A stretch of 64,000 nucleotides of DNA from Bryum argenteum (lineage: Eukaryota > Streptophyta > Bryopsida > Bryales > Bryaceae), in contig CM073322.1 in NCBI GenBank assembly GCA_037043015.1, positions 31,243,864-31,307,863 of the forward strand, in the 5' to 3' direction. The position numbers and the translations under genes were made by a program. This document shows, piece by piece, positions 14,121-60,681 of this stretch; position 1 is the stretch's first letter; each line of letters begins with the position of its first letter. Below the pieces are notes generated by a model, which saw only the letters and a program-made list of their open reading frames with translations, was not told where the DNA came from and made no database searches.

Positions 14121-14147
14121 AAGGGGATATTCGTTATTTTGAGACAA
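14121..14147 (+). repeat. Left terminal inverted repeat of element A
   Basis: It begins AAGGGGATATTCG and ends TATTTTGAGACAA. It matches the reverse complement of 34651-34677 at 24 of 27 positions. Confidence 0.7.
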
Positions 14148-14149
14148 AA

Positions 14150-14850
14150 TGGACATTTTGAGATGTTGAAAAACGTACACGCACGAGGGATTAGGAAAAA
14201 GTTGTTGAAGTATTTCAAAGATATGAAATTTAAATTAACATGCTAAGCAAAAAGAAAGAGTTGAAGGGTCCAATCACAAAGCAATAGATTTGAAAATGAG
14301 ATCTTACTATAAATAGGAGGAAGTAGAGATCAATTTGGCAATATAATATTTCTAAAAATAGACATTCAACAATACATAGTAAAGAATCATATAGGAACCA
14401 TGTTCACATTATTTCCCCTGAGAAGTCACAATTGATTCAAGTGAGATCATAGTTGAAAGACATAGTAAAGGTTGTATTGAAGTATGAAGAATACGTACAA
14501 TTGTACAAGTGTACACTATATTTTGACATTGGTATATATCGTAAAAAAGAATGAAATCGAGAATGAATGTAGAGGCATTAAATGTTGTGCCTATAATAAT
14601 ACTAAAGATAGAGTAATTAAAAGAATGTTTGTAGAATATACGAGGAATATACGCGGAATATACTAATCACGAAAGAGCAATAAATGCATAGTCACGAAGG
14701 GGATAATCCTCAAGTAAGCACAACTAGCAAAGCCTTGATATCTTAGATGTACTAGGTTCCACCAATCTGCGACACACATTAATTATGTTGAATATATCCC
14801 ATGATGAAGGATATCGGACCGAGGAGGAAGAATAGAAAGGAGGAACATTA
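14150..14850. other. AT-rich left flank inside element A
   Basis: No gene or repeat of note. A short plus-strand frame at 14484-14666 has no coding features. From about 14850 the GC content rises where minus-strand coding sequence begins. Confidence 0.5.
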
Positions 14851-14853
14851 AGG

Positions 14854-15695
14854 CTAGGTCTCTTTAGATTTAGAGCCATTCTCGCTTGGTTGAATTCTCC
14901 AACAACTTGGCTTCGGCCTCGTCTTTGCTTCATAAGCGCGAATAAGATCATTGCGACGAGTTTGGCAAGCAATTAGTACCCAAGGTCTCACTCCGACGGG
15001 CAAACCAGGTGTCAAAACATTCCCCATCACGCCTACGAAGGGAGTCAAGAGAACGTGAAGGACGAGAGGATGAAGGAGCCGCCGATTCTCCATGCGCGGG
15101 ATACGGCCGGGGGTGCAAGAAGCTCGCCTTGATGGTGGGGGTCGCGATGCTAGTGGCTTTGCAAGAGGCAAGAAATCCCCTTTGAACGAAGATGTCGCGG
15201 GGCACCGCCGAGGATCTTGTTGTCCTGCCATCTCTTGTTGTAATTGTTGACTTGGAACGCGGGTTGTGATGTATTGGACGTCCCACCCACATTAATGGTG
15301 GAAGGAGGAACAATAGAATCTCGCAAAGGAACGTCCATAGCGCCCACAACGGAGTAGAGCTGCCTCTGAGGTGTTTTTGAATTTAGAGCATCGGGCGACA
15401 TAGAGCGCCTTCGCGATGGTGATGTACAAAGCCGCTTCAGGGGAGACGGAGAGCAAACCGGGGTCCGAACAGGACCACGACTCGGCGGGCTGTCAACAAC
15501 ATTGTCATCAACACTATCTCTTGTAAAATCCATCGTTGCGGATGCTGCGTCCGTAGCCGTGAACATATCAAAATGCCTCGACGCGAGAGAGGCGGCAACA
15601 CTTGCTGAGAGTGAAACAGAACATTCCGGGACGGAGGTCTGGTTGGAGACATCATCCTCATCACCGGACTCCTCGACGGTGGAAGGCGCCCTGAC
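14854..15695 (-). CDS. Exon of an unknown, serine/proline-rich protein in element A
   Basis: A strong acceptor (TTTGTTCTACAG, just above 15695) opens a frame starting VRAPSTVEESGDEDDVSNQT, running through SPPSRGPVRTPVCSPSPLKR and PSRRRSMSPDALNSKTPQRQ to a stop at 15150. The composition is that of a disordered, phosphorylatable nuclear protein. Beyond 15230 two other frames stay open (for example PSSSRPSRSLDSLRRRDGEC), which suggests a one-base shift and continuation to about 14850. The upstream intron (15696 to about 15950) contains two diverged palindromes. I do not recognise a family. It lies downstream of the FCP1-like gene on the same strand and may be a separate gene of the element. Confidence 0.45.
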
Positions 15696-16176
15696 CTGTA
15701 GAACAAACCCAGAAATGAAAGGAGTCGGTCAGGAAAGATGGACGCAAGAAAAATGGAAAAGTTATCCACGAAGCGGGGATAACTCTAGCCGGGGAGAACT
15801 AACGTCCTGTTCACAACCAAAAAGCATACAAGAACATAAAGCAAACAACCAGTGAAATCAAACTCGACATAAAGAGAACATATGACTCAATGCATACAAG
15901 CTGATACCTCCAAAGATTATCCCCGGGCCGGGCATAAATGACGTCCTAACTGACAACAAAGAAATAGTCATAAAACAGAAACAATCATCCACATCAATCC
16001 TAAGTGAACAAGCATCCACAAATGACGTAATAGAAATTGATCACATTGCGATGTGGTACATAAAGGATGATAAAATAATCGGCTTTTTTACTTAAACCAT
16101 GATATTCATACAATAGCAACTCATTTACATATTTATCTACTGTGTCCGAGAAAAGGAATAAAGAGCGCACTAATCG

Positions 16177-17004
16177 TCATCTGGACAATGACTCAGGAAA
16201 TGAAGGAGTTTCGTAAGTACGCCCTAAGTTCCTATGCGACTGCGCCATACCATCTAAAATAAACCGACCTAAATTGCTATACTTATTGATAGGCGGAATA
16301 CCAATCCTATGATTGTCTACATAGGACCGAAGATTCCCAGGCCTGCAATTGGCGAGAAGAGCAAGTAGCCATGGAGTAAGCACGGCGGACAGAGTATTGT
16401 CCTCCCGGCTAGATTTTGTCCAAGGCTGGAGGAAAATGGCGTTCCCAGTGTGGTTGCAAATACTCTTCTCAAGACTGTCGTCTATAAGGAGAGTGTTATC
16501 CAACCCAAACACAACAGCACCGTTACTAAGCGGGAACACCGCAGAGGACAATGTTTTCAAAAATATCCTCTTTTGAGCATTGGTCGGGTACGACAAAAAG
16601 ACACCTCTGCTAACCTCAACCAATCCACAAGACTCTTGTCCGAGGATCTCAAAAGGCTTAGGAAGTCCACTGAAGAGGTAGTCGATAACGGCCTCAACAG
16701 TGGACTTCTTCATCGAACTCCATATCACAACCCTCGCAACATGGGCGGACATGGTCTCCAAGAAATTTCTCACTCCCGGGCGGCAGAAGACCGCCTTTGG
16801 GGGCACCTTCGCTGGGATGTCCGGCACGTAGAGCCGGTCCCCAGGAGAGCACATGGGAGAATTCTTCCCGAGCGATGGCAGATGCACACACTGACAAAGT
16901 ATCCCGTTGATGTCGAGGACGACATTCAACCATCGAGGCGGCGCCGTCTGCCCGAGTGCAGACCTCGGCCGCGGGACACACTCAAATTGGGAAATCAATT
17001 CTAC
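16177..17004 (-). CDS. FCP1/NIF-type HAD phosphatase-like protein with altered catalytic motif
   Basis: An open exon starts after acceptor GATGCCAG (17005-17012) and runs to a TGA at 16177, about 275 codons. It shows the FCP1-homology order: WLNVVLDINGILCQC (motif I), FCRPGVRNFLETM, VVIWSSMKKSTVEAVIDYL (motif II region), KRIFLKTLSS, then VVFGLDNTLLIDDSLEKSIC (motif III, DDS) and AIFLQPW. In active FCP1-like phosphatases motif I is DxDxT/V. Here the second aspartate is asparagine (DINGIL), so dephosphorylation is doubtful. DxNG variants are common among plant FCP1-like proteins. The start is uncertain; a separate open frame from ATG 17192 lies just upstream (MSFSVHLCGIHSAP) and may be its first exon. 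Same strand as the DGQH gene, inside element A. No frameshift is seen within the domain. Confidence 0.65.
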   Translation of the reverse strand, partial: VELISQFECVPRPRSALGQTAPPRWLNVVLDINGILCQCVHLPSLGKNSPMCSPGDRLYVPDIPAKVPPKAVFCRPGVRNFLETMSAHVARVVIWSSMKKSTVEAVIDYLFSGLPKPFEILGQESCGLVEVSRGVFLSYPTNAQKRIFLKTLSSAVFPLSNGAVVFGLDNTLLIDDSLEKSICNHTGNAIFLQPWTKSSREDNTLSAVLTPWLLALLANCRPGNLRSYVDNHRIGIPPINKYSNLGRFILDGMAQSHRNLGRTYETPSFPESLSR

Positions 17005-17600
17005 CTGGCATCAAAGGAAACGATAATGTTGAGGACACCTGATTGAAAGCAGAGACACTGCGATCTGAGCAAATCCACAATGACGGCATGCATTGCATCC
17101 GTGGCATTGGGGCCAGATCGATCGGATTCTGATGCAATCTCACGGCCCGTGGGCGCAGAATGAATCCCACAGAGGTGAACTGAGAAAGACATTGAGGAAA
17201 ATCAAATCACATTCCAATTTGAAGGCAGATAAATTGGTATCAAAAATAAGTTTATTTACATCAATCATTATACAAGGGATGTGTCTGTCAACTCTGACCG
17301 AAACACTACGCTTGGTACTAAAACTACCGAAAATCTAGAATACATGACGCGCCACAGCAAACGTTGACAACTCCAGAAAAATCATAACGAATAAGGGTCG
17401 ACGATCTCCCCGCAGGAGAAAATAGACGAATAAGCGAAGTTCAGGCAAGCGAATCGGTTCGGGTTACGGCCAAGCGTCAAAATCATGACGGTTGTGACGA
17501 CGACGAGTTATTGCAGACATGCGGGGGAGGGTGAAAGTACTTACATCTTCATGTGGCTCTTGCGGTTGAATCGCGTTGGTCGGGCTAGACGAATAGTCCA
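16998..17600. other. Region between the FCP1-like gene and the DGQH gene
   Basis: It holds the possible first exon of the FCP1-like gene (17192-17043, minus) and otherwise short frames. No palindrome copy and no recognisable gene lie in 17200-17600; it would be the promoter region of the minus-strand FCP1-like gene. Confidence 0.4.
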
Positions 17601-17604
17601 CCAA

Positions 17605-20600
17605 CTAACCGGTCTTGGACACCGGCGCGCGCGACGGGCTCGGTGGATCGGTCTCCTCCACTTCGACTCTTGGCTCCGCATTATCCCCGGCTCGGGGATA
17701 ACTTACCAGTTGGTCGTACTGAGATAGTTCTAGACCAGAATCGGGTGCTTGATCAGACTCAACCACTGGAGCAGCGGGTGCCAGACTCGATGAATCAGGA
17801 CCCAAGGCAGGATCTTCGGCGGGAGGGGAGACCTCTACAGAAGAGTCTGCATTATCCCCGGGCCGGGGATAATCTCCAGACTGAGGAAGCTGATCGGAAA
17901 CAAGATCGGGCGATCGAAAGCAAGATCGGGCCGATCGGAAATGCGACAATGACTTTCGACACGACACGACTTCGGGTTCCTCTCGAGAGGAATGGGTCTG
18001 CGCTGGGCGTCGGAGCTGATCGCAACAAGATTATCCCGGCCCGGGATAATCTGTGTAATGCCGTGCCGAGAGACAATGGCAAAGGCTCGACATCGCTGAT
18101 GGGTGCAGACGCGGTGGTCGTGGCAGTATTATCCCCGGGCCGGGGATAATCTGCAGCAGGCTCGGAACTCAGCGTGCCCGAGGTGGAAGGATTATCCGTA
18201 TTCTGCCGAGCGATTATCTCAGCAACGTGCGGTGGCATCGGCGTGTTAGATCTCAGCCATTCGAAGACGATGTTAGCCTCCGCGATCTTCCTTGCGTCCT
18301 CTGCTTCCTTCTGGGCCTTCTCCTTCTTCTGTCTCGCCTCTTCGGCTAGCCTCCTGCTGTTTGCCAGGTAGTGTTCCTCAACCTTCACACCCGGAGCACC
18401 TGGAGGAGGCGCAACACCTGCTGCATTCGCCATTGGGTCAGTAGAGGGATTGCACACCACGACAGGTTTCTCCTTCTTCACAGGCGTGCCAGCATCAAAA
18501 GAAGCCTGGTCAGAATCATCAACGGGCAGGTTACGTTGACGGGAGCTCAAAGGTGTCGATGTCGGGAGCACGATGGCTTCGCGTTCGGGAGCTGCGACAT
18601 CGACAACATAGAATTCATCCGCCTCATCAGTGCCATCGTCGTCACTGAGATCAATGAATACGTGGGTGGGCGCGACGAGTGCATAGAGTGGCTTCCCCCG
18701 TTTGGTAGGATCTTTACTCTGAGGGGTTCTGTCCACCGCAGGCGCCACAGTAGAAGAGGGCATGGCGCAAGACGCCCCATCCAAAGGTTGACCCGGTGCC
18801 ACTGTCTCAGCTGCGAGATCGAGCCGGCGTTTCAATGGCCTTCGCGAGTCGGGGTTGCCCGATGATCCGACGACAACATCCGCAGATGATTGTACGAGCA
18901 TTGTCGTTGACGTAACGAGCCTCGAGGGGATCGCGGCATGGGCTCCTTCCCGGGCGTCGGGTCTCGGTATCGAGCCCTCTGCTGGTGCTCATCACCCATC
19001 GGATCGGAGATACGAGGAGATGTCTCCATTGCTTCCGGTGATGGTGCGGTTAAGCGAAAGCTTGCGCAGACGGTGCAATGGGCGATGCCGGCTCTTGTCT
19101 GGTGTTGGCGATGCATGCGGGGATGACCCGACCGGGGAATGCCTAGACGCTGACGTCCCCGATCGATAGTCCGAATCGTCGAATCGTCACCATCGGAGTC
19201 GTTTGATGTGGCATTGCTGTTCCTTTTCTCCGAGGAGTCTGCAGACGTATCTGGAGCTTGAGCTTGAGGGGACCGCGTGCTCTCAGCTCCCATGTCGGAC
19301 ACCGGCTCTGCTGCAGAAGATGAAGGTTGGCTCCCTTCGAATGAAGCCCTCGTGACGAGGCTGAGGTCCTGCATTTTGTCGGACGAAGAGCTCTTCCCCA
19401 GGCACGTAGGGACGATCATCGTGTAGGAAGTCCCTATAGTCGACCCTTGTCCTTTTACCCGCAGAGAGTAAGTATCCCCCGTAGTAGTGATTGTCAATCA
19501 GGCCATAAAAGGCATGGTTCAGGATCTGCATGGGAAGAAAAGAAGCGATCAATAACGGTGATGCACAAGGGAAAAGTTATCCCCGCCCCGGGGATAACTG
19601 ATAGAACAGAACGCGAAACTGAAAATTTGCAGGATTACGAGCAACACAGGAATACACTGGTATAAACTGAAAGTTATAAAAGAAGGGGAGCTATTTATCC
19701 CCGGGGCGGGGATAATGGGTCTATTTCGAGACAAATGAGGATGCTGGGTGTCAAGCTTACCAGGGAGGCGACCATGAATTTAGAGCCGGAGAAGATCCCG
19801 AGTGTTGCGTCACCCTTCTTGCAGTACTGGCGGATGAGTCCAATGTAGAACTCCATCCGCAGCTCGGAGTACTTAGCACACCACTTGGCTTCGTTGAAGT
19901 GCCCACTATCGATGTAGTACGGTAGATGGGCGGGTTTGAACTCCGTCGGGTTTGTGCCGATGAAGGCTTCACCTTCTGGTGTCTTCTTGAACAAGAAGAC
20001 AATGAACACGTCGTTTGCAGCTCTCTCTGGGGCTGGTGCGTTGAAGATCCTCTCAGCTTTCGCCACCACGTACTTGGATGTGCTCATTGTGTAGGTGGGG
20101 TGGTGAATGAATCATCGCCTTGACTTCTCAAGCTTCTTCGTAGTGCCGCCGTTCACGATCCAGGACCCATACGGTAGGGTCGGTGTATCTTTGGACTCGA
20201 TATCACCGCGAACTTTGCTACCAATCTTTGAAAAACATTTTCGCAAAGATTGGCGTCCTTGCAAAGCGAGAAGGTCATGTCACGCAAGTCAAAATGTTCC
20301 CAAACGAAACTTGCCCTCAGCGCCTTGGTTGACCATTGGCCAAGAATGGTCATGGCCTTGAGTCGAAGGTCCGAAGATCGAAAGCCCTCGTGGACTCCCG
20401 ATGCTTGGACTTACGCCGCAAGAAGCCCTTGAAGAAGTCCTCAACGTTGGGGTACAAGGACTTCAACTCCCCGCCGTTTTGAACTTCCCCGATTCTCGCG
20501 ATGCTGTCGAGTAAAATTTTGGCTCGGCGTGGGCGAGCAAAGATGTTCCACGACGCCGTCGAGAAGCCCTTCCTCGACTTCCATACCTTCCATTTCTCAG

Positions 20601-22646
20601 GGCTTACTCCTCCGTCGTTGGGAAGGAAGAATGGGAGAGATGGCCTAATCGCCTTCAGCTCTTGGTACACAACACCCTTGCACTTCGACGAAAAATCCGG
20701 TCACCACAAAGTGGCTCGGGCGATGGAAGTACTTCGTCTTGTGGAAGGACAACCTTGATACTTCAAATACACCTTCGGCGGTTTCGACGTGGACAAGGTA
20801 AGTGATGACCCTGTCGATGTCGTCGTCGGAAAGATTTCCGAACTTCCTGAAGAGCTCCCGGCTCACATGATGCAAGTCTCGCGTGAAGTATGTCGGGTTC
20901 AAGCGATAAGGTCCGCCTGTATCGGGGTTGATCAAATTTCCAAGCGAATGAAGTTCGAGGAACTCTGCGAACTTATCGTACATGCTGTCTGGAAATGTGA
21001 TAATCTGGATCTCGTGCTTGAGGTCCGATGTTGTCAAAATCAACTTCCCGACCTTGGTGGGATCGATGTTGCGAAACCGGATTAACAGAAGATCCGTGAA
21101 TTTCTGAGAAAACAAGAAAAAAAGGTTAATTGCGATGAGTGAAGGAGCAATGAATACGTCTGGAACAAACTCAGAAACAAAAGGAGGATTATCCCCGGGG
21201 CGGGGATAATCTTTGGGAATGGTGTATTGTCTTACCTTAAAATTGGTAGGATTGTAGACCGAGTCGTTATTCCGCGTCGATTTATTCCGCATTCTCGTTC
21301 ACGCTTGCGGATGGACGCCCACACTCGATCCAAATAGACCTTCCAGGTTTTATTTGGTTGCCCCACGTCGGCTGGGCGTGCTTCAGAGGGTTCGTGGTGT
21401 TGTAGAAGGCCGAAATCGCTGTAAGGCGCTTTGGGTCGGTCTCGTAAAGAATGTAGGCATACCACGATTGAAGCTCTTTCTTCCTGTCCTCTGTAACGGG
21501 CTCGTTCTGAAGCTCCCTCGAGGCTTCCACGGAGTGCTGGCCATCAATGATGGCAAATTTCCCATCTTTGATCTCCTCCCATGTTTTTGGCCTCCTAGGG
21601 AGCAAGTTTCCACTGGCGTCAATGGGCGTGATGATGATCGTCTGCCTCCTTGTAACATCTCCCATCATTGCGAGGTATGCCTTTGTGTTCGTAACGATGT
21701 CCCTTTCAAGACTTCGCACAACCCATGCGTTCTTTCCCCTCTCAAGCTGGGAAATGGGCACCAGCTTCTGTTCTTTCTTGAACAAGAAAGAGTCCTTGAA
21801 GCTTTGGTTGAAGACTGTCTGCTCAGAAGCAAACCTCACATAGTCTGCCACTTCAGCAGAAGGTTTCGATGATTCCTTCTTCTGTCGGGCAGGCACTGCG
21901 ACTACGGAAGTCAAGGCCGATCCTTGACTTGCGGTTGCAGGGGGAGCTGTACGCTGTCTCTTCTTCTTGGGGGCGGCACCACCTGCAACGATCGCATCAT
22001 TCATCAGCCTCTTCGAAGGCACTCGCGGAGGTGCCGGTAGAGCACCACTAGACTGCGGAGCTGAAGCTTCCGTATGCAGGACAACTGCAGACGCGGCGGG
22101 TGCCTTCTTCTTCTTTGCCGCTTTACTGCTTGACCCTTCATGCGTCTGTGACAGCCTTGAGAGCATGGTCGTAAGTTTACGAACTGTATCTTCTTGGTTG
22201 ATGTTCTCCCAGCTGTCGATTTTGTCCTCCCAGAACTTGAGAAAGCCATGCCGAGTCTTGCGCAGCTCTGCAAGGAAGCCATGCGGGTCGAACTGCGCTC
22301 CGCAGTTTTCACCCACCTCTACCACAATTCCAAAGTGGTAGGGATCCCTACCCTCGTCCTGTTGTTGAAGGACACACCTGAGCATCATGTACTTCTGCCT
22401 GTGTGCCTCAAATGCTGTTACCCTCACATTCTGGTGTAAGGGAAGAAATGGGTCCGTCATGACCAACTTGGTCATAACGAGGACATGGTTCTTGACGATC
22501 TTCAGTGACCAGCTGACGACCACATCCTTGAAGAGCCAGAGGTCAAGGCCTTCGTCGTCGTTATCGCGGAGGAACGGGTTGAACCCAAATGGGTGCTCCA
22601 CCTTGTCCAAGGTCATATCGAGGGGATTTGTTGCACTGAGAGCCAT
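17605..22646 (-). CDS. ParB/DGQH-like and methyltransferase-like protein of element A, multi-exon, frameshifted
   Basis: ATG 22646 (MALSATNPLDMTLDKVEHPF) follows an acceptor, GATTGCAG. The first exon encodes a globular N-terminal region, a basic Ala/Pro linker with KKKK and PKKKRQRT (nuclear-signal-like), then WVVRSLERDI and FAIIDGQHSVEASRELQNEP (about 21560-21520), the ParB/DGQHR-type signature. After two one-base shifts near 21290-21340 it splices (donor 21236) to exon 21103, encoding NPTYFTRDLHHVSRELFRKF. Shifted frames then run through to about 20150. From 20087, SKYVVAKAERIF leads to YCKKGDATLGIFSGSKFMVA, which resembles motif I (FxGxG) of beta-class amino-methyltransferases, where this motif lies C-terminal. 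Intron 19526-19760 follows, then NHYYGGYLLSAGKRTRVDYR. The tail (19400-17605) is disordered, with the coiled segment RRLAEEARQKKEKAQKEAED and in-frame palindromes. Function as a site-specific DNA-binding or modifying protein is inference. Confidence 0.55.
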
Positions 22647-22654
22647 CGTTTTGT

Positions 22655-23454
22655 CTGCAATCGTAAATGGCAACTCAATAATATTAGTGCCTAAATAGCT
22701 TAGTTATCCCCGAGGTGGGAAGAATTTCTGTCTTGTCTACCTCATTTCTACGGTAAGGCTAAGGAATTATCCCCGGGCCGGGGATAACATCTGCATGTAT
22801 AGGTCACATAGCCGACCTGAGCAGGACGTTATCCCCGGGCCGCGGATATCTTCTGCCTACAGAGGTCACAAATCTGCTCTTATTGCAGAGATTATCCCCG
22901 GCCCGGGGATAATTCTTCGCTTCAAAGCGAAAAATTATCCCGGCCCGGGATAATTTCTGCATTAAGAGGAGACAATGTCTTGCTCTCCATGCACAAGTTA
23001 TCCCCGGCCGGAGATAACTTCGCCTCCGTGAGGTCACAAATCTGCTCTTAATGCGAAGTTATCCTCGGCCCGGGATAATTTTTCGCTCGAAAGGAATTAT
23101 TATCCCCTTTGCCGATAACTAACTCATCGCATTAAGTTGTGAAAATGTCGCTGCATGCATGTTATCCCGGGCCGGGATAACTTTGCCGACAAGAAGTACA
23201 ATTTACAAGCCAATATTCAGTTTTATACTCATTTTGTTTGTTTTTCATGAATTATCCCGGCCCGGGGATAATTAGTTCATTTTTATTGTATAAAAATCAA
23301 GCCAAATAACAATTTTATCCCGGGCGCCGATAATACCTCATCTGTACAAGACAAGTACCCTTCTTGCGCAAGATTTATCCACGGCCCGGGATAATACCTC
23401 TGTCACAAGACAAGTACCCTTCTTGCAAGAAGATTTATCCCCGCCCGGGGATAA
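22655..23454. repeat. Array of 13 palindromes upstream of the DGQH gene
   Basis: Copies of the TTATCCCCGG-type palindrome start near 22704, 22767, 22829, 22892, 22935, 22998, 23059, 23099, 23162, 23253, 23312, 23374 and 23435, about 40-90 bp apart. Several have 19-bp short forms or mismatched arms (22704, 23099). Some spacers recur (GAGGTCACAAATCTGCTCTTA at 22862 and 23030; CAAGACAAGTACCCTTCTTG at two sites). An acceptor lies just before the ATG at 22646, so the array is in a 5' leader intron or the promoter. A regulatory or binding-site role is inferred from position only. Confidence 0.85.
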
Positions 23455-24480
23455 CGATGAGAGCCAGAGATGAAATATCAAACATCGGCATCCTGAGAAA
23501 CTTGTGAGACGAATCTAATATCTACATACGACGTAGATTTCAGCATTCCACAACAGTTTTAATGAATGGGAATGAGTTAATCACTCCAAGCAAAACGAAT
23601 AGAATTGGGAGGTCACCTGATAGAAAAGCTTTGTGAATGCTGGAAGTGCTACAGCAAATGAAAACCCAATTCGATGCTGAGTATAGTTATATACTGCAAT
23701 TCCAAGTGCAAATTCAAAACACAATCCCACGACATAATTGCAGACACAATTCCAAAAGACAATTCCAAGAATCATGCTGATGAGTTCAACTGAACCCTAC
23801 AAAACCTGAATGCAATCGATGAAAAAGATTCTGGAAGGAGCTGTGAGACTCAGGCGAAGATGCAATGTCGAATTCCAAATTGAACAATGCAATCTAAAAG
23901 CAGCAAAATCAGAGCATAAAGTATTCAGCAGGATTTAAACTTAGAAGAATGTAAGAAAAAAACCCACAGAGTTCAGGTCTGAACTCACCGAATCTGCCCT
24001 AGAAGCCTGAAGCAGTCCGATTGCATGCACCGGCTCAGCACCCTCAAAACCTAACTGCAAAGAATCGACCGCAGCTCCGACCGCAACTCCGACCGCAGCT
24101 CCGCTTTCACCAACTCGAACCGCAGCTCCGCGTTCCGCAACCTCGACAAGCTGTGAGAGGCTTTCAGCAACCTCGACACGCTCCGCACTCATGAACAAGC
24201 ACTCTCAACGACAAGGATATCACCTACGACACGCTCCGCACTCACGAACAGGACACTCTCAATGACAAGGAGCACGAAAAGGACGCAAAACCTAACAAGC
24301 ACAGGCAAGCTCCGGCACGGCGAAACTAAATGCAGCTCGTTCGATCACAGGAGAAGCAAGAATGCGAGAAACGCGAGAAATGCGAGAAGTGCGGAAGAAT
24401 GCGAGAAATGCGGAGGGCTGAGCGACTGAGGCGGAGAAAGCTCCTGTGCGGAGGAATGACGGCGGAAAAGTGCTCATGAT
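23455..24480. other. Non-coding region of element A with small repeats
   Basis: Bases 23640-23780 repeat CAATTCCAA words. Bases 24055-24135 repeat GACCGCAGCTCC. A 60-70-bp unit (CGACACGCTCCGCACTCA...CACTCTCAACGACAAGG) is duplicated at 24172-24270, and GCGAGAAATGCGAGAAGTG recurs near 24363-24415. Open frames there follow the repeats and are not supported as genes. Confidence 0.45.
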
Positions 24481-24485
24481 GACAC

Positions 24486-24581
24486 GGCCATCATGAAAGT
24501 ACATGACCATGGTCATGCGAATGGCCATGCGCATGTTCATGGCCATTCACATGACCATGGTCATGTACTTTCATGATGGCC
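24486..24581. repeat. Large near-perfect hairpin (44-bp arms, 8-bp loop)
   Basis: Arms 24486-24529 and 24538-24581 are complementary at 43 of 44 positions, loop CGCATGTT. Each arm itself contains the palindrome CATGACCATGGTCATG, so cruciform sub-structures are possible. It sits exactly where GC content drops to the AT-rich island, and could mark an insertion junction. Confidence 0.95.
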
Positions 24582-24589
24582 ATTTGAAT

Positions 24590-25110
24590 TTTTTTATTTG
24601 AATTTTTAAAAAACACTTGGTTTACATATCAATTGCGATTATTTTAATTTAATACTACAAAATATTTCTAATATTTGGTATTCAAATCCATTTGAATTAT
24701 ATTAGAACATTTTATTCAAGTTTAAACTGCCTATTCATTCTATATTCTTTTGTAGAAATATTCACTTAGTTTTGTACACAAATAAAGTTGTATTTCCTTC
24801 GTGGTTTAATATGTGTTTAGTTAGAATACTAATTAATTCATGGCTTGTTCTAAAAAGTTTTGTCTAAGTGTAGTATGTGAAGTTGCGATCAAAGATAGTA
24901 TAAAGACCTTAAACCCTAAATTAGATCTACACGGTTAAATTTAGTAAAATAAATAAGATTCTTTTCATAATTAAATAAAAAGAATATAATTGGTGTTGGA
25001 ATTGACAATTATAGTTGCTACAATTCCACCTTTGTTGACAATTGGTGTTGTTATTCGTAATTAATGTTGTCAATACCAACTATAATTTTTAGTGTAGCGA
25101 GAAAGAGAAT
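24590..25110. other. AT-rich spacer, start of nested island
   Basis: Stops in all frames and no palindromes of the TTATCCCC family. Words such as TTGGTGTTGTTATTCG and TTGTCAATACC recur in both orientations near 24990-25085, suggesting a decayed inverted structure. No gene is seen. Confidence 0.45.
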
Positions 25111-25114
25111 TGTC

Positions 25115-25657
25115 TTGGGGCCCCAGCTGCTTTAGTCGGGGCCCCAACTGGAATAGTTGGGGCCCCAAACTGCACTAGTTGGAGCCCCACTTTGAATAGT
25201 TAGGGCCCCAAATGATCGATTGGGGCCCATTTGGAATAGTTAGGGCCCAAAACAGCATCGATTGGGGCCCCAATTTGGAATAGTTGGGGCCCCCATTGCA
25301 CTAGTTGGGGCCCACATGAATAGTTGGGTCCCCAACAAGACTAGTTGGGGCCCCAATCGGAATAGTTGGGGCCCCACCAAGCGATTGGGGCCCATTTGGA
25401 ATAGTTGGGGCCCCAACAAGATCGATTGGGGCCCATTTGAAATAGTTAGGGCCCCAATTTGCATCGATTGGGGCCCCAATTTGAAATAGTTAGGGGCCCC
25501 AACAGCACTAGTTGGGGCCCCAATGAATAGTTAAGGTCCCCAACAGACTAGTTGGGGCCCCAATCTGAATAGTTAGGGCCCCAATGCATCGATTGGGGCC
25601 CCAACTGGAATAGTTGGGGCCCCCAACTGCATCAGTTGGGGCCCTAGCTGGAGTAAT
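25115..25657. repeat. Array of TTGGGGCCCCAA palindromes
   Basis: More than 20 copies of GGGGCCCC, most extended to TTGGGGCCCCAA, are separated by two alternating spacer types: one with GAATAG, the other with CACTAG or ATCGAT. The spacing is about 20-28 bp. The open frames seen here on both strands (WGPN repeats) are by-products. The array lies about 460 bp upstream of the RING/oxygenase-like gene on the same strand. Confidence 0.92.
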
Positions 25658-26122
25658 TGAAGCCCGAGGTAAAGTTTGAATTTATACTTTTACATTTTTA
25701 AATCTTATTTTAGAATTTTAGATTTTTAAAACTTATTATAGACTTTTACATTTTCTATTTTTAATTTGAAAAGCACATTAAAAGCTTGTTTAAGTAACTA
25801 TATAATGTTAAGACTGTATATTATATTTATTATAATATATATAGATATTTTGTGCGTTAAACTTTATTGCCTTATATTCCATTAGTCTATAATTATCCAC
25901 TTTATTGTAAAGATGGATGAGGTTGTAGTACATGAGGCAAAAACCTAGAATTGCACAAGTGATCGCCTTAACTTCATAGAATCGCAAAATGTTTTAGAGT
26001 TAATATATGATTCTAAAACGAGAGGTTGTAAAGCTCCACAACACTCTCAAAAACTATTCGATTGTTTGTATGTTCTTTCATGCAAATAAACTTTAGAGTG
26101 CGAGTATTTCCATAAAATATTT

Positions 26123-27468
26123 ATGAACCCAACATCTAGAGTAGAATTGCCTATTCTTGCAAAACAACAATATTATGTTCATTATTGCCACAAAATTTGT
26201 GGTACTTGCCTTGAAAAGACATCACATTGTCCCATATGTGAAAATTTGTTGAACGTTGATTTCCAAAAGCACACAAAATATATCTTAGATACATCGATCA
26301 CTAAAGATATTGAAATAACTTCTTTACTAGATTTTCATGATACTTTTGATCGATTACAAATCTTTTTACAAAAAAGGAGTGAAGAAAACAAAAAGAAGAT
26401 GCCGCTTTTAAACAAGATACTTCAATGTGCATTGATGCAAAAAGGATATCTTGAATTATTTATTCTCAAGAAATTTGATATAAAAACTGACATGAGAATT
26501 GTTATTAGCTACACAAGCATTCCAATGAGATAAAAGTAAAAAGAAACACCATATTGGGAGAATATCAAATTTGAAAATGCATGGCAAGAAGTTTATGGAG
26601 ACAATCATCTTATACAAACAACATCTATTGCTTTATTATTATTAGATGGTAATAAAATAATAAATGATAAAATATTAAATCCAAGCACTTTATCATCAAA
26701 TCATGTTTTATTCATTTATATACCTAAAATATGGAATAATGATCCAGTTTGCATATCAAAGCACATTAGTCAAGACAGATATATATTATGAAACTCAAGC
26801 TCGCATAAGGAGGAGGTCCAATCAAACAGACCCAAAAAGGGGTCATTATAAGTCCGTCGGCCATGGGTACATAGCTCATGGAGGAGTAGACTCAAGAGGA
26901 GATGTGGTACCATATGATCGGAAAAACATGCCTCAAAGCAAAAAAACTTGCTTTCAGACGTATAGGAGATTCTCTTGCAACAAAAATGTGGAAGGCATTG
27001 GATTTATTTGGTCATCCAGTTAAAGAATTTTTTACAAATCAATTCCAAGCTATAGATTGCATATCAATTGGTTTAAATTCATATCCAACACAAGTGCATC
27101 AGTTACATTTATCCAAGAATTCTTTTATTAAGCCACACATAGACATATTTGATTTTAATTGTTCTTTTATATGTTGGTTCAATGAGGGACATCCCAAAGG
27201 AGGTGAATTTGGAATTTTCCAACATTGTATGAAGTTCGAAAATAATAACGGAGCTGGTATATTTGTATTTAGCAAATATATTAGCCATGGAACGTTACGA
27301 TTTGATTCCAATTCATTATCAGACACTGATTTTAAGATTGGTTGTGCTCTGGTTAATAAAGAAGCAATTTGTACGAGAGTTGAAAATCAACTACAAAGTA
27401 AAAATCCTATTACTTGGAAAGTTACCAAGTATAGAAATCTTATGGATAATGAAGATTGTGAAAGTTAG
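26123..27468 (+). pseudogene. Broken gene with RING-like and 2-oxoglutarate Fe(II) oxygenase-like segments
   Basis: Frame 1 (26123-26533) carries HYCHKICGTCLEKTSHCPIC, the second half of a RING-type zinc site, then a helical stretch. After two stops an open stretch (26545-26790) reads WENIKFENAWQEVYGDNHLI. A third frame (26902-27468) contains the oxygenase-like part: KPHIDIFDFN (H79, D81), EGHPKGGEFGIFQHC (GGEF), and GIFVFSKYISHGTLRF (distal H129). This HxD...GG...H order is the iron-binding layout of 2OG-Fe(II) dioxygenases, and the GGxF and SHGTLRF context most resembles the TET/JBP-like branch. The 2OG-binding arginine may be the R of TLRF. AT-rich codon use differs sharply from the GC-rich DGQH gene, fitting a separate origin. 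Stops and shifts make it non-functional as read. Confidence 0.45.
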
Positions 27469-27469
27469 G

Positions 27470-28895
27470 TTACAAATAAAAATGAGAAATTGGCCTAGAA
27501 ATTATTAACATGCCAAAAAAATCCTAAATATTCCATTCCAAGTTTTGAGGTAGTTTGCACCATTGCAAGACAATTGTTTGTCTTAAATTTTGTTATCGGT
27601 ACAAGTCTCTTTTTATATAAAATACACATATTTCTTGTTCTTGATTGGGTTTTTTCTTGATATAGTGTTCAACTGAAGAATTCTACAATTTGTGTTTTAT
27701 GATAATTTTCCATTGATACAAATTGAAATTCAAAGTAACTACCACGCAAGTTTATCATCTTTTAAACTGTAGAAGTTATGATTCAAAGTTAAATAAGTGT
27801 TTAGGGTTAAGGGTTTAGTATAGGATTTAGTGTATAGAATTTAGGGTTTCTAAATAGCATTTCTAATGTGTGAGTCATTCAATCCAAGCCTTCAAAGGCG
27901 TAATTTGAATTCTCTCAAGCTAGTTGTCCTTACTATTATGAAAAATAAAGTTTATGTACATAAAATGAATTATAATAATTATAATATAACATAAACTAAC
28001 ATATTAAGATATAGTATTATAGAGTATAATATTATACAATATAGTTCAATAGAATATAATAGTATTTATTAAATCTTACTGAATATCCTTTAATATAAGA
28101 TAATAAACTATAGTATAATATATTATAATATACCAAACTTCTTCCTTTTTTTATATTTCGGAGTTAAAGGGGATTGGGCAAAATATCAAATTAGAAATGA
28201 TTCCAAATGAAAAAAGGAATAACTTTAAAAATCTTGAAATATGAATTGACAAATGATAATCATATAGTACAATAATTATAATCATATAGTGTAATAATTA
28301 TAATCTAACATAACATACCTCAACATAATGGTATACAATTTAATATTGCATAATATAGTATAACGTAATATAATGTACTAAAATATAATATAACATAGTA
28401 TATATTATTGTAATACTATATGAAACGATAATATAAATATGTTTAAAAACATAATAATATCTCATTATCATATAATATTACATAACAAAAATAATGTAAA
28501 TCATTTTCATATGGGAAAATATATCATAATAGAATATAATATAATATAAAATAACAATTTCTATATTTTAAAAAGTACTAAAAAAACTTATAATACAATA
28601 TAAAACAATATAATACAAAGATAATATAGGAAAATATTGGAAATTATAGAAATAATAGTATGATATATTCTAATAAAGTATAGTATCGTATTATTTAGTA
28701 TACTATAGTACAATATAGTATAATATAGTATAATAGAATACAAAATAATAATTAGTTATTTCACATAAATTTTAAACATATAGGACAATATAATCTATTA
28801 TAGCATAACTTAACACAATGGTAACTATACAATTTAATATAGTTTAATATCGTATCACATAGTATTATATAGTAATATATTCTATCGTATAATTG
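27470..28895. other. Very AT-rich non-coding stretch
   Basis: TATAATA-like words are increasingly frequent toward the satellite at 28.9 kb. No open frame of interest. It looks like diverged satellite sequence. Confidence 0.6.
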
Positions 28896-28896
28896 G

Positions 28897-29774
28897 TATA
28901 ATATAATATAATATAATATAATATAATATAATATAATATAATATAATATAATATAATATAATATAATATAATATAATATAATATAATATAATATAATATA
29001 ATATAATATAATATAATATAATATAATATAATATAATATAATATAATATAATATAATATAATATAATATAATATAATATAATATAATATAATATAATATA
29101 ATATAATATAATATAATATAATATAATATAATATAATATAATATAATATAATATAATATAATATAATATAATATAATATAATATAATATAATATAATATA
29201 ATATAATATAATATAATATAAATATAATATAATATAATATAATATAATATAATATAATATAATATAATATAATATAATATAATATAATATAATATAATAT
29301 AATCTAATCTAATATAATATAATATAATCTAATCTAATATAATATAATATAATCTAATCTAATATAATATAATATAATCTAATCTAATATAATATAATAT
29401 AATCTAATCTAATATAATATAATCTAATATAATCTAATATAATATAATCTAATATAATCTAATATAATATAATCTAATATAATCTAATATAATATAATCT
29501 AATATAATATAATCTAATATAATCTAATATAATATAATCTAATATAATCTAATATAATATAATCTAATATAATCTAATATAATATAATCTAATATAATCT
29601 AATATAATATAATCTAATATAATCTAATATAATATAATCTAATATAATCTAATATAATCTAATCTAATATAATATAATATAATCTAATCTAATATAATAT
29701 AATATAATCTAATATAATATAATATAATATAATATAATATAATATAATATAATATAATATAATATAATATAATA
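28897..29774. repeat. Pentanucleotide satellite (ATAAT)n with CTAAT variants
   Basis: About 175 units of ATAAT. 28897-29300 is almost pure, with a one-base phase slip near 29220. Between 29300 and 29710 the variant TAATCTAATATAAT is arranged in higher-order order, and then pure units resume. No coding capacity. Confidence 0.97.
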
Positions 29775-30478
29775 CAACATACTACAATATACTAAATATA
29801 TTATATAACTCTAATTTTGTAGTTATTATAGTTTATTCAATAAATACACTAATACGAATTCGTATTTCTTTTCCACTTCTCATAGTTATGTATACAATGT
29901 TCAATTTTGTAGAGAAAACTATAATACAATATTTTTGTAAAAATAAAAAACCGATATTTAGAAATGGGTTTCCTCCAAAATCAATTTCCCGAACCATCTT
30001 TGCCGCCTAATTTTTCAAATTTCAGTTTGAAAAAGTGGACTCGTATTTAGATTCCCAATCAAGACAAAATCCATATTGCGACAAAAACCCGTCCGCTTTT
30101 TGCACGATTTCGGGCATCGAGATACTCTCGATGTACCGTTGGGGTCGGGCTCGGGTTGCGTCTGCGGTTTCTCAAGTGTCATTTCATTTTTTCTCACTCT
30201 CTATCGTGCTCTCAAGGTGCGCTTCGTTTCGTATTTCGTTCCGGTGTGTAGATTCAAGGTTCTGTGTGTGTAGAAGGAGTTTCAGTTGGTGCTCAATGCG
30301 TCGATGTAGTTTCGCATTTATAGGTTTCGATGATTGTTGCATTAGTTTGAGAGTGATTCAAGTTATGACTCATCGCTCCTCATGTTTCTTTTCGAATTCT
30401 GTATTAAGTACTGATTTTTGTGCTTGGTTTTGTTCAGTTGCGAGCCCTTGTTTATCTTTCGAATTCTGCAATTCGCAG
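29775..30478 (+). promoter_or_regulatory. Probable promoter and 5' leader exon of the element A transposase gene
   Basis: Unlike the AT-rich island, 30030-30478 is of balanced composition, T-rich on the plus strand. It ends at a good donor, TTCGCAG|GTGAGC (30478/30479). Its open frames (for example 30035-30523) are serine/cysteine-rich and not protein-like. I read it as an untranslated leader exon spliced over the palindrome array to the acceptor at 31305. Confidence 0.4.
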
Positions 30479-31305
30479 GTGAGCGATGTTCGCAAATCGA
30501 GTGCAAGGCATGAATGCCAGTAATTCAGCACTTACTATTAATAGAATGGAAGTTATCCCCGGGCCGGGGATAATTTCTCTTGTCTGTGGGGATTATTTCC
30601 ATATGCTATGCTCCGATTATTATCCACGGCCCGGGGATAAACATGCATCCATCCATTAAAACCATTATCCCCGGGCCGGGGATAACTATGTAACCGCCCA
30701 CACGAAACTATTATCCCCGGCCCGGGGATAATAGTTATTTTTTGGCGGTCGAATAGTTATCCCCGGCCCGGGGATAACTTTGTAACCGCCCACAAAATAC
30801 TATTATCCCCGGGCCGGGGATAATAATATTATGTGGGCGGTTACAAAGTTATCCCCGGGCCGGGATAACTATGTAACCGCCCACAAGAAACTATTATCCC
30901 CGGCTCGGGGATAATAGTATTTCGTGGCCGGTTACATAGTTATCCCCGGCCCGGGGATAACTATTCGACCGCCACAAAAAACTATTATCCCCGGCCCGGG
31001 GATATAAGTATTTACTTCCGTTGCATGGTAATCTCGGCCCGGGGATAACTAACCAACTGCCTACGAAGTATTTTTATCCCCGGGTCGGGGATACTGGTTA
31101 TTAGTGGGAAGTTTGTTTGTTATCCCCGGGCCGGGGATAATTCTTATTTTTTTGTCAGTTGCATAGTTATCCCCGGCCGGGTTAATCATGCAATCGCTCA
31201 GGTTAACATACAGCTAGTTTATACTCAACGGAATTCATGTTTTCTCATCTCGTTTGCTATTAAACAAGCACTAAGCTATCTTCTCAATCTTCTTCTTAAT
31301 TGTAG
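30479..31305 (+). repeat. Leader intron holding an array of 14 palindromes with alternating inverted spacers
   Basis: The donor GTGAGC (30479) and acceptor TTAATTGTAG (31305) would remove the whole array, and the ATG at 31307 follows at once. Palindromes (half-site TTATCCCCGG) start near 30553, 30620, 30665, 30711, 30757, 30803, 30849, 30894, 30940, 30985, 31027, 31075, 31121 and 31167, mostly 46 bp apart. The spacers alternate between GTAACCGCCCACAAAATACT and its reverse complement, so the real unit is an inverted dimer of about 92 bp. The last four copies are more diverged. Confidence 0.85.
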
Positions 31306-54720: not shown

Positions 54721-57100
54721 CCATTTCCTCGTTTCTTATTTTTATAAATGCCCATTTTTTTTTATATATGCTCGTTTCTTATTTTTATATATAATATTCA
54801 CTTAAATCCCATAGTAACACTCACTTAACTCCCACTTAACACTTGTTTGCCTCACCAAACGGACAATCAAATTATATTACATAATTAGGTTTTTTTCTCT
54901 TATATATAGTTTGTAATTTTTGAAGAATTTATAGAATTGTTTGTCTAATGTTTCATTCAAATAATACTAAAAGAGATGGGTTTTGTTAAACCATGTATTG
55001 TGGAATTTTTTCAGTGACATGGGACGAATGAAGTGTGAATCGCAAATGAAACACATTTCATTATGTGATGTACGGTAAAACAATTTCACCTATGTTGTAT
55101 GTAAATTAGAATAGGTCAAAGTTTGAGAATACTATTTAAATTTCAATTATTGGAATTGCTATTAAATTTGTCACTTCACAATTTAAGCAACCCTAAAATC
55201 CCTAAATGTCACTACACTTAAAATATTGCAAAGTTAGTCTCAAGTGTTTTCATCCATGTGAATGCATGAATGGATGATAATTATGGTTTTGTGGTGTTTT
55301 TATCGACACTGTACTTGGTTACGTCCGACTATTATGATACAAAATCCATTGTTAGTGTGTTCACATCATTTCGTATGTTTAACCCCTAACTATCCTTTAA
55401 AGCCAAAACAGCTTTTTTCTATTTTGGGCGATCTAGATGAAAAAATTACTAAGTGTTCTTCAAACTACAAGGTGTATGTGCAAAAATTGGCAAAGTTAGA
55501 TTCTAATTTTTGAGTTTTTGAACGCAAATTTTAGTTTTCAGCCTCTAGCGTGGCGTATAAAACTTTTTAATTTTGAGGTTTTATTGAATTTTGTTTTTGG
55601 TGATATTTTCTTAATCAAATCACTACCTAAGTTCCAAAGTGCCTCTAATAAAAAATATTACCAATTTCACAAGGGCGACCTTCAAACTTTATAGAGCAAG
55701 CTTCAAGTTTTTAGAATTTTCAAGAAAAAACTTTTGCGCAAACTTTGGATGTTATAATCTCGAAAATGGTAAAGATCCAACGGTGAAATTTTAGAGCAAT
55801 GACTAAGAATAGGCTTAATTATTAGATCATACAAATTGGAATCTAAAGTAAATAAATAAATTTGGTTCACACTCTCGGAAGTGCATAGAGGTAGAAAATT
55901 GTAGTTTTGAGGTTTCAAGCTCCAAAAATACACAAGGAAAATTAGGGGTTAAATAGTGCTCTATTTTCAAGTGATGACTAAATTTTTGCACAATGTCACA
56001 TACATAGAAGGTGATCTATTGTAATATTGTGCCCATGTACAATAGTATAAAACTTTTGTACGTGAAATGAATGATAATACGCATTATTTCAATACAAAAT
56101 GAATAATCATTATGGAATTCAACCAAAAATTCACAGTAAACATCAACATAGGGCTCCGTTGCATTGGCTTTGGGACTTATAAAACAAAGAGTATGATTTT
56201 AGTGCACAAAACGTATCTAGCATCGAAAGGTGGTAATACCAGAGTTGTATGTCCACACTTGTGATGACATACATCACTCTATTCCAAAAATAATTTCAGT
56301 CCATGAACATGTTTAATATGTTGGCAATTATCCTAAGAGCAACCCCGAAGATCAATGCATGGGTCCTTTAACCTCAAGATCAGATGTCACTGTATTATTA
56401 GCTCATAATTGAATCACCAAATTAAGCTACGGACATAATTGTAATTAAACTTGAATGAATTCTTGCACCGCACGATTATGCACTCATAAAATACTTAAGT
56501 TATATTGAAATGGAAATTAAAGGTTCAAAATTGCTTCAAAATTCCTCATGCTTTAGGAGATATTCACAAATAAAGTTTGAGAACACAATTTGAAATCTGC
56601 CTAAAAGTGCCGAAATTGCAATATATGCTCATTTATTCTCAAAATTTCCAAGAGATCAATTGAAATGCAAAATTTTTGAACATTCACCAAAATTTGAGAT
56701 TTTACGTTTTATCAAGTTCTAATTTTTGGGCATCTAGAAGAGGTACCAAGACATGATCTCACCGTTTAGATTTCCAATTCAATGATTTTTAACATGCCTT
56801 TTTTATTGTCAAAGACCGGACTTTCTATTTATTTAATTTTTACCTCCACACCTCCATGTGAAAAAACGGTATTTTCTCTATGTTTAATAGGGCCTATGAG
56901 GGTAAAAATTATGTAGACATGTACCTAACTCACTTAGGAAGAAGAATTTGAAGATACTCATGTCAATTTTTTTCTATAAATTGGTATTTTTGGCTCACAA
57001 GTAGTATGTTATTTCTATTTTTTGAATGTGAAATTGTTGAATGTTTTTGTAGTAAAATGGATCACTGAAGGTGAAGTTAGGATAACCATTTTATTTGGAG
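54720..57100. other. AT-rich middle zone of element B without genes
   Basis: No supported coding sequence; two short frames (55262-55513, 55703-55933) lack protein-like features. Repeats of the 52-53 kb array type are not seen. Part may be the body of the Helitron-like insert. Confidence 0.5.
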
Positions 57101-57111
57101 TGGGAGAAAAA

Positions 57112-60100
57112 ATGGACGGGAGAGCATTTGGAAGTCCTGTGGCTGCGGTGAATGCAATGACACGTCCACCAAGAAGTGTGGGAGAGAGAATTATCCGAGC
57201 TACTCGCATCCGACTATTTCAAGAACCTTCTCCATCGACACAACAAGGCGCGGAAGTCCGAGAACGAGGCAATGTGGAGCTTCTAAATGCAAACAACATT
57301 GTTGTTGGGACGGGAAAGATAGACAACAGCCTTAAATGTGGAATGGAGTTAAATGCGGTGAAGTTATGTCCTTTTGAAACTGCTATCCGTGTTGTGGACG
57401 TTTATGATGGCTCTGTATGGACAGAGGGAACTTGTTGGAGAACGCTTAAGCGAATGTGTGGGTCATACCATACGATGGGAGAAGGCACGTATACGTACTA
57501 TAGAGGGGACGTCTACGAGTATAGGCGAATCAAGTGGAGGACAAAATTTCTCATTTCCTGCAGTTGTAGCATCGCAATTTGAGTTTGAGGATGAAGTTAC
57601 GCATTCCAACCACTCAAATAGTGTATCAAACATCCCAGAGGACTTTGATACTATATGGAATAGGTCTCCTATGACAGAAGGTTCACAGTGTAGCACCGAA
57701 GAAATCCCTCGTGTTGACGGTTTACCAATGGAGACCCAAACGAGGCGTTATCGTATGCAAAACCGTAGAAGGCGAGTACAGACGCCACGTGAGAGGGGAG
57801 AACCATTGGGCCAAAAAGTTACATTGGATAGTATTTTGGCAGCAAAAAGAGAAGGGGGGTGCAAAAAAAACTGTTTGAGGAATGTGGATGAGAAGTACAT
57901 ATTAGACCAACGGTATATGGCATGGGGTCAAAAGTATGAGCAACGCGCGACATGGATTTTGCAGATGTTGAATGCGTTCTACTCGCGAACGGAGGGGATA
58001 AGGAGGGACAAGTTCAAGACAAAGTTGGATGGCTTGGACGTGTGCAATGCATGTTATGCAAAAGCCCTTGGATACTCTCAAAGGCGGTTCAAGCAATTGA
58101 AGGTGTCTCACCAAGTATATGGAAGAGTTACAGCTGTGCACGGAAACACGTGCAAGCTAAGAGAAGGTGCAAAGATGTCTGCAGCACGTGAGTGTTTCGG
58201 GGAGTTTGTGAGAGAAACTGGTTGTACACAACCGCATCGACAGATATGGCGGAAGTTGGACAATACCATCGTGCCTCTGATTTTGTTGCCTATGAACACA
58301 ACAAAGACGGATGTGTTCTACTATGTGAATGAGGAGGTGAAGAAGATGGTTGATGGGGAACCGCTTTCAATTACTTCATTTCATAGATTGTGGCGTACTG
58401 AATTTCCACATGTTCAAATACCGCCATTTTCTAGATTCTCAAAGTGTTATCATTGTTGGGAATATAAGTGTGGAATGGAGGCGACTACTAATGCAGCTGC
58501 AAGAGTGGAGATCAAGAAGTTGTATATCGTGCACATCAATCATCAAATGGAAGAAAGACGTGACTACTGGTTGTTCAAGAGGTCGAAGAATGATAACTCC
58601 CGATTTCTACATGAGTTTGATTGTAGATGGCATGGACCAGAATACGACTATGGTTCCGAAGATGAGGCAGACGGTGAAGAACATAGAGTCAAGATTTGTG
58701 AAGACTCATTTGTGTGGGGTACTTGTGCACGGGATTGGTTTGTATGCCGATGTTTGGATAGATGCACACCACAAGCACGACAACGCAACCAAGTGATTAC
58801 GACAGTGATGCATGTGATTGCTGACGTGAAGAAGAGGAAGGGAAAATTGGCGCCGACATTGCGAATTCAAGCGGATAACACAACCCGTGAGAACAAGAAC
58901 ATTTACATGTTTGCCATGTGCGCATCACTCGTGGGATTGGGGTTCTTTAAGGAGGTGCAACTTTGTTTTCTTGTGGGCCACACACACACGAAGATATTGA
59001 CCAACGCTTGACAAGATCATATCGAACACGTTGAAGAGAACAAACATTGACTCATTGAAACAACTTCTGCAACTGGTGGAGAAAGGCTCATTGTATACAG
59101 AGGCCTTTGTGAGTGCAAGACATTTAGAGAATGTGAGGGACTGGAAATCGTTTATTACACCTCATCTTTTAACAGGGGGCGATGCACTCACCGGCATAAC
59201 CTTCCCACACCACATGAGATTTTATATGGAGAATGGTGTGCCTCGCGTACAATACAAGCATTTCAGCAAGGACGTATGGGAGCCAACAGAGGGGCATTTG
59301 TGTTTACGCTCCGTGCCAAGCGTGTTGGAGAAGCCTGATTTGGCGAAGGTGTTCGGTGCGGATGAGAGGGAGTTGAAAGCCCTAGATGAGTTTATTGGAT
59401 ACAAAGAAAGATGCGTGGAGAGATTACAGAATGTAGAGAGCAATCTGGAGGCCATTGAGGAAGTGCAATGGTTGGCGTCGTATCTAAAAGAGTTTCCAAA
59501 TATCAACAGGGATGCTGAGAGGGCAAAACCATTCTGGGTAGAGGAGCCGGGAAGAAATTCAAATGCGATGACTGAACCGGATGGAGTAATTGAAGGGGAC
59601 AATGATACAAATGTAGTGAATACAGAGGTTGGTTTAATCATGGCAACTATGCCAAATCCAGAAGCTCGACGGTACTTTGGTCCTCGCAGGAGGAGACCTT
59701 CATCAGTGGCCGTGACAACGACACCGAGGAGAAGAGCTGTGGTTGCTATGGATGGAGCAAGAACCACAACATCTACCGTAGGAGCTGAAGATCCCTTTCC
59801 ACCGTTCAATCCGGAGAGTGACATTAGAGTTGGGCATTTTGTGGCTCTCACCGTAGAACCAGTAGAAGTGCGAGCTGGTGTACCCTTCTATGTGGGGAAA
59901 GTGTTGGAGTTTGGACAAGGCAAATGGGCTACAAAGATGAAGATGGTGTGGTATTGGCCCGTGAGAAGACGGGGAATGCAAGACGAGCGGGATTCTAGCA
60001 GAGCGAGATATACGAATTGCATGGAAGCATTTTGGGAGCCCTCTGGAGAGGGACACGGATGGGTTGTCAAAGATGCGGCTATATTTTCATGGGAAAATGC

Positions 60101-60278
60101 ACCAATGACAACAAGGAGTGGACTTGTACAAGAGAACAATGTGCGAGTGCATGGCGAGCTTACGGAGGCAAGGATCAAAATTCCAACTGAAGCAAAACCG
60201 CATTTGGTGGAATATATTGCACTACAATTGGAAGAGATGGATAATGAACGTTTGCAGAATGACCTTGATGCATATTAA
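57112..60278 (+). CDS. GHTHEDID transposase-like protein of element B, frameshifted
   Basis: ATG 57112 (MDGRAFGSPVAAVNAMTRPP) leads to a beta-rich domain (NVELLNANNIVVGTGKIDNS to LSECVGHTIRW, after a shift near 57440) resembling the DUF8039-type domain of plant transposon proteins. Then come RRYRMQNRRRRVQTPRERGE (basic), VTAVHGNTCKL, ITSFHRLWRTEFPHVQIPPF and CYHCW. Between about 58590 and 58790 the conserved SLIVDGMDQNTTMVPK lies one frame off. The main frame resumes with LRIQADNTTRENKNIYMFAM and LVGHTHT, where an extra CA dinucleotide breaks GHTHEDID. From about 59010 an intact 415-codon frame ends in a domain (VGHFVALTVEPVEVRAGVPF) like the SH3/BAH-type end of such proteins. The element A protein shares DxMDxxxxxxP, DNxxxxNKN and GHTHEDID. 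Confidence 0.65.
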
Positions 60279-60279
60279 T

Positions 60280-60650
60280 ATGTTTAGTACGTCGTACGAG
60301 AGACATGGTACATGGAGTTGTGTTATGTAGCAACAATAGTTGTATAGTATAGCGCAACGTGCATGAGTGGTTTGAATAACATGATGTTTTGGTAGAAAGA
60401 TATCCTAAACTTTGTATCTATTTTGACTATCATGTTTAATACATTGGTTTGGAATAAATGGAGAATCAATTGCATCAAATTAAAATGCATGTGTGACCAA
60501 ATATGCATGATTGAAGTAAGCTGAAACCCCAAAATTCCCATTTTAACACTTCCTAAATTATCGGCCTACAAAACCCACGATTACCAAAATTATACCCCCT
60601 ATCAATTTGAAAAATGTCAGTTTCTATTTGACGGGCGACAAGTGCATTGT
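60280..60650. other. 3' flank of the transposase-like gene, right end of element B
   Basis: AT-rich, no gene. The stop codon to inverted repeat distance (about 375 bp) is similar to that in element A (about 535 bp). Confidence 0.5.
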
Positions 60651-60654
60651 CAAA

Positions 60655-60681
60655 TGGCCAAGTGCAAAAATTCCTAATTCA
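60655..60681 (-). repeat. Right inverted repeat of element B (core)
   Basis: It begins TGGCCAAGTGCAAAAATTCC, the exact complement of 46755-46781. TTTAAGG follows, and TGTAAG precedes the left copy, a weak hint of a TAAG target duplication. Confidence 0.8.

Follow-up and report, generated by a model that had tools for sequence, protein, structure and literature searches.

The closest described counterpart of the elements considered here is Sola1-1_Ec32 of Ectocarpus, a 21.5-kb DNA transposon with an opposite-strand gene whose product of 1104 amino acids (aa) is described as combining ParB-like and DNA methyltransferase parts and is proposed, by the same authors, to bind and mark the element's own sequence (PMC12477816). 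Transposons of green and red algae are described there as also carrying ParB-methyltransferase accessory genes (Iyer 2011; Petroll 2025, via PMC12477816), and fungal DNA transposons of several superfamilies, including KDZ, are described as carriers of TET/JBP genes (Kojima 2025, PMC12730594). Here, we analyse a 64,000-bp stretch of the Bryum argenteum genome (C2:31243864-31307863, hereafter the window; the genome comprises 258.8 Mb in 25 contigs) which contains two large elements, A and B, each with a gene for a protein bearing a DGQH motif and a gene for a protein bearing a GHTHEDID motif, the latter corresponding to the Pfam domain DUF7869. We favour, with moderate confidence, the reading that A and B represent two distant families of autonomous-type cut-and-paste transposons, in which the DUF7869 protein is the transposase and the DGQH protein a palindrome-binding accessory factor.

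The first-pass annotation had taken A and B for giant transposons bounded by inverted repeats, and this is borne out by terminal inverted repeats (TIR), target-site duplications (TSD) and recurrent boundaries (Table 1). The TIR of A are 27 bp long, with arms identical at 24 of 27 positions. Homology to A begins at positions 14117-14121 in all seven other copies that were fetched (an eighth fetched locus, L005, is the window itself and hence is not counted among them), and the flanking DNA is different. Five of these seven copies are complete, measuring 18.6-21.7 kb each, and all five have perfect 4-bp TSD (CAAC, CTTG, TAAA, ACTT and TATT), so that, with the copy of the window counted, a 4-bp TSD is present in six of six complete copies. 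In copy C8, there is an internal deletion and the right end is absent from the 26 kb read, and for copy C2 the 20-kb read stopped short of any right end. The left-end DNA of A yielded 40 scored matches in the genome (from 95 candidates), and the middle of the element differs from copy to copy. The left end of B lies at the same base in 8/8 loci (window included), next to eight different flanks; the right end was read in the window copy only. All 18 candidates for the left-end DNA of B were scored, and 10 of them, the window included, are long matches with 95%-100% identity.

Both elements display a divergent layout, with the DGQH gene on the minus strand and the DUF7869 gene on the plus strand. 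The annotated arrangement, DGQH to the left and GHTHEDID to the right, thus holds for both, but the GHTHEDID gene of B is frame-broken, the break splitting the motif itself (one frame reads GHTHTKIL..., the following one HTHEDID), and the likeness between the DGQH genes of A and B is confined to the short motif. Linkage was tested in the A family, where the counts rest on the 64 of 2371 DUF7869 candidates and 46 of 1612 DGQH candidates that were scored, so that a miss does not amount to unlinking. An A-type DUF7869 match was found within 40 kb of 26 of the 44 DGQH loci, at a median distance of 7.7 kb, and all 26 pairs (including the window itself, for which the DUF7869 position was entered by hand) are divergent; random placement, repeated 1000 times, gave 2.0 pairs on average and at most 7. 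The remaining 18 DGQH loci have no scored DUF7869 partner within 40 kb, which proves neither linkage nor unlinking. Seen from the other side, the 40 A left ends include 21 with a DGQH match on the opposite strand no more than 12 kb away, and a listed left end accompanies 21 of the 44 DGQH loci. Genome-wide linkage of the A-family gene pair is thus strongly supported; unlinked genes, named beforehand as the observation that would count against the head-to-head plan, were not seen among the scored matches. Contig C1 carries 24 of the 44 A-type DGQH loci, and many of its copies are more diverged; it may be a sex chromosome or a region of slow DNA loss.

Table 1. Features of elements A and B in the window (position 1 is its first base)
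Feature	Position	Strand	Remarks
Element A	14121..34677		20,557 bp; TIR; boundary in other copies; TSD CCAA on each side
A left TIR	14121..14147	+	AAGGGGATATT...; includes palindrome half-site GGGGATA
NIF/CTD-like phosphatase open reading frame (ORF; PF03031)	16177..17010	-	E 1.8e-13; third conserved left-arm gene of A
Scattered palindromes TTATCCC(C)-S-(G)GGGATAA	17681..23454		In and around the left-arm genes of A
Acidic/Ser-rich low-complexity ORF	17852..19576	-	515 aa in the C6 copy
A DGQH gene	19695..22703	-	Broken in the window; DGQH (ParB/DndB-like) region, then possible methyltransferase-like C-terminus by eye
Optional middle gene of A	26090..27468	+	526-aa frame in the C10 copy (L022:6649-8226, -)
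Palindrome array	30553..31140		Just upstream of the A DUF7869 gene
A GHTHEDID gene (DUF7869)	31265..34117	+	Frames broken in the window, long in other copies
A right TIR	34651..34677	-	
Element B	46750..60686		Corrected ends; 13,937 bp; TSD TAAG on each side
B left TIR	46750..46781	+	AACATTGAATTAGG...; arms 31/32 identical
B DGQH gene	47094..51472	-	Several frames; motif at ~49920; methyltransferase-like tail by eye
B GHTHEDID gene (DUF7869)	57022..60278	+	Broken at the motif
B right TIR	60655..60686	-	

The DUF7869 protein is very probably a DDE/D-type transposase, because its predicted model, of middling confidence, has an RNase H-like core that matches integrases, Mos1 and Argonautes (a family missing from the fold listings is not thereby excluded). 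Three acidic residues occur in order, as judged from the predicted model and conserved alignment columns; alignments A2 and A4 were poor, with misplaced fragments, and the alignment used for folding, A3, partly shared these faults. The catalytic residues would be the D of DGMDQ, the D of DN....NKN and the D/E of GHTHEDID, and the enzyme would pair the TIR and insert the element with a 4-bp staggered cut. The 4-bp duplications found in both families fit a single type of transposase. The Pfam match of the B gene came in two pieces, the first with E 4e-21 and the second, at E 3.5e-05, below the cut-off. The domain yielded 1811 first-look candidates in the host genome, 150 of which were scored, and the name DUF7869 was not found in the literature searched. 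If it is an RNase H-type transposase acting with TIR and 4-bp TSD, a nameless Pfam domain would gain a function.

Assignment of the DGQH protein is more tentative. In the A family, the gene forms a 996-aa open frame, with a probable intron of ~130 bp (by eye), in the C6 copy and again in C7 (96% identical). Comparison of the C6 frame with six other copies gave 92 isolated substitutions (changes fewer than nine columns from another difference being omitted), of which 49 are synonymous, 43 nonsynonymous and none nonsense; the synonymous share expected at equal rates is 0.22, or 0.41 counting C-to-T type changes only, and the pattern fits, weakly, purifying selection on the frame. Searches of Pfam, NCBIfam and PHROGs assigned the A protein to no family, the weak matches from the latter two being to families that have no stated function or are implausible here; sequence searches of PDB gave nothing useful, and a homologue search over 7859 candidates retrieved none at E 0.001. 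Its fold prediction, with a predicted local distance difference test score (pLDDT) of 32, was unusable. A relative with 27%-34% identity, encoded by a distant element at L020:94-5998 (minus strand), just to the right of the C9 copy of A, keeps the DGQH stretch, and its sole Pfam match is to DndB (PF14072; E 0.064, 12.7 bits, below the 29.1 cut-off), a regulator of the Dnd system. The profile searches made of the DGQH proteins returned no match to a DNA methyltransferase profile, and their designation as ParB-like methyltransferases is unproven. Accordingly, the protein might be a DNA-binding regulator or partition-like bridge, devoid of methyltransferase activity, that acts via the palindromes adjoining the genes to control the divergent promoters, as the DndB hint and the missing methyltransferase profile would suggest; on the other hand, FxGxG- and DPP-like stretches can be discerned by eye in the DGQH genes of both A and B, and the algal relatives in the literature are said to combine ParB with a methyltransferase (PMC12477816). 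We regard this alternative as a serious one, albeit with less than even chances.

The palindromes bear on the same question. The motif TTATCCC-S(3-9)-GGGATAA occurs at 20 sites (19-21 bp) in A and at none in the remaining 43,443 bases of the window, and 19-26 palindromes per copy were counted in six other A copies, one of them incomplete. Of the 23 in the C6 copy, 20 fall outside the three frames against which they were checked; the other three are found within the DGQH frame (probably intronic, by eye), at the margin of the acidic ORF and where the DUF7869 stretch begins, one in each place. Palindrome arrays had been annotated in both elements, and that description suits A but B less well: the middle of B contains tandem repeats of 269 bp and a GGCC-rich array of 155 bp, weaker as palindromes than those of A. 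An inverted pair of ~250 bp with 74% identity, one arm outside B (3492-3739) and the other inside it (56532-56788), is a small and older repeat. The element at L020 carries a distinct set of palindromes, ATTTAGGTCGA..., and the natural reading is that family-specific palindromes are read by a family-specific protein, which could be either DGQH or DUF7869. As the half-site GGGGATA is common to the TIR and the palindromes of A, both may be binding sites of the transposase rather than of the DGQH protein, a possibility to which we assign the same minority weight as to the pure regulator; nothing speaks directly against it, but the palindromes flank the DGQH gene, with one falling within its frame.

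It is somewhat less likely, though still to be weighed, that the second gene of B is unrelated to that of A, the shared DGQH letters being due to chance and DUF7869 alone uniting the two elements. Indeed, tblastn of the 996-aa A protein against B revealed no significant similarity (best E 1.5), and homology of the two genes is unproven; nevertheless, they share position, strand and the tail seen by eye, and the L020 protein, a distant A-type relative, retains the DGQH stretch at 27%-34% identity. That the inverted repeats of A and B arose by chance and enclose unrelated genes, as the shortness of the TIR might suggest, has a negligible probability and was rejected in view of the shared boundaries between different flanks and the 4-bp TSD in many copies.

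Near-identical copies (L049-L056; A copies in L009-L028) differ mainly by small, complex and clustered indels. Among nine triplet classes, CAG/CTG, the plant CHG methylation context, is touched most often, a signature that would by itself point to a land plant or close relative as the host. In A, the affected sites number 82 of 103 in the DGQH region, 112 of 153 in a second bin and 5 of 7 in a third (71%-80% across the A bins); in B, they number 34 of 46 in the coding part and 1 of 2 in the other bin. CCG/CGG comes next in A (37%-60%) and stands at 11/29 in the coding portion of B, and values for the remaining seven classes range from 0% to 38%; a scan of all triplets likewise placed CAG/CTG first in both families. 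The simplest cause of these scars is base-calling error in methylated DNA, a true lesion process being the other candidate; the frame breaks, largely at CAG/CTG, may be assembly errors. For this reason, and given that open frames of both genes are present elsewhere in the A family, we rejected the broken frames of the window as proof that the families are dead.

The L020 element has the DGQH gene, an acidic 541-aa ORF and a NIF phosphatase (E 1.2e-07) in the same order as A, so that the left arm of A constitutes a block of three genes retained in one distant relative at least. The optional middle gene encodes an HxD...H stretch, 2-oxoglutarate dioxygenase-like (TET/JBP-like) by eye, with the motif in four of eight A copies; it has no Pfam match over the cut-off and no PDB match. 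A 1.3-kb AATAT array lies inside A (28518-29805), where the A copies align irregularly. Outside the elements, plus-strand ORFs at 10608-13999 and 45349-46260 resemble, by eye, pieces of transposases, and a perfect TTGAAA hexamer array of 37.5 copies occupies 10245-10469. Rfam and tRNA scans of the window gave nothing useful.

Returning to the preferred reading, the DGQH protein would be an accessory factor inherited together with the transposase. It would most likely use its DGQH (ParB/DndB-like) domain to bind the palindromes of its own element, may bridge or regulate the divergent promoters and, in the weakest step of the scheme, perhaps methylates element DNA as a mark. By analogy with the algal systems, such an accessory function is a good hypothesis. 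A bolder version, which we consider improbable, would make DUF7869 the hallmark of a very large unnamed transposase lineage in whose giant members a DGQH protein with a DNA-modifying tail finds the element by family-specific palindromes, their half-site recurring in the TIR, and writes a self-mark other than 5-methylcytosine, shielding or licensing the element against the CHG silencing of the host. With B copies whose left ends are young and near-identical, and with A copies in which both frames are open, transposition, palindrome binding and self-methylation are open to direct test.

Among known classes, A and B show the features of cut-and-paste elements, namely TIR with common boundaries, a fixed 4-bp TSD and a transposase with an RNase H fold in the predicted model. 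CACTA/EnSpm elements, which have CACTA/CACTG termini and a 3-bp TSD, were rejected, since neither the outermost bases (AAGGGG in A, AACATT in B) nor the 4-bp TSD fit. A 4-bp TSD marks Sola and is found in both A and B; of the Sola1-type opposite-strand ParB and methyltransferase gene, the strand agrees, and the nearest match is the DndB one below the cut-off. Bacterial DndB/DGQHR proteins, which belong to a phosphorothioation context, have the DGQH motif in common with the proteins studied here, and the Pfam match of the L020 relative to them stays below the curated cut-off. The first-pass annotation knew of no giant transposon defined by such a gene pair; this finds no support in that form, and the paired-gene plan is not new in kind, because a Sola1 element of the brown alga Ectocarpus with an opposite-strand ParB-methyltransferase gene has been published (PMC12477816). 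Compared by description, A and B are like Sola1-1_Ec32 in being giant and in carrying the accessory gene on the strand opposite the transposase, but differ in host and sequence, and the parts of its description available to us mention neither palindromes nor a NIF phosphatase; the green and red algal elements, as described in the same source, carry the same type of accessory protein (PMC12477816). The TET/JBP-carrying fungal elements, in turn, are like A and B DNA transposons with a captured DNA-modification enzyme, although, by description, that enzyme is a fungal dioxygenase and their transposases bear other names (Kojima 2025, PMC12730594).
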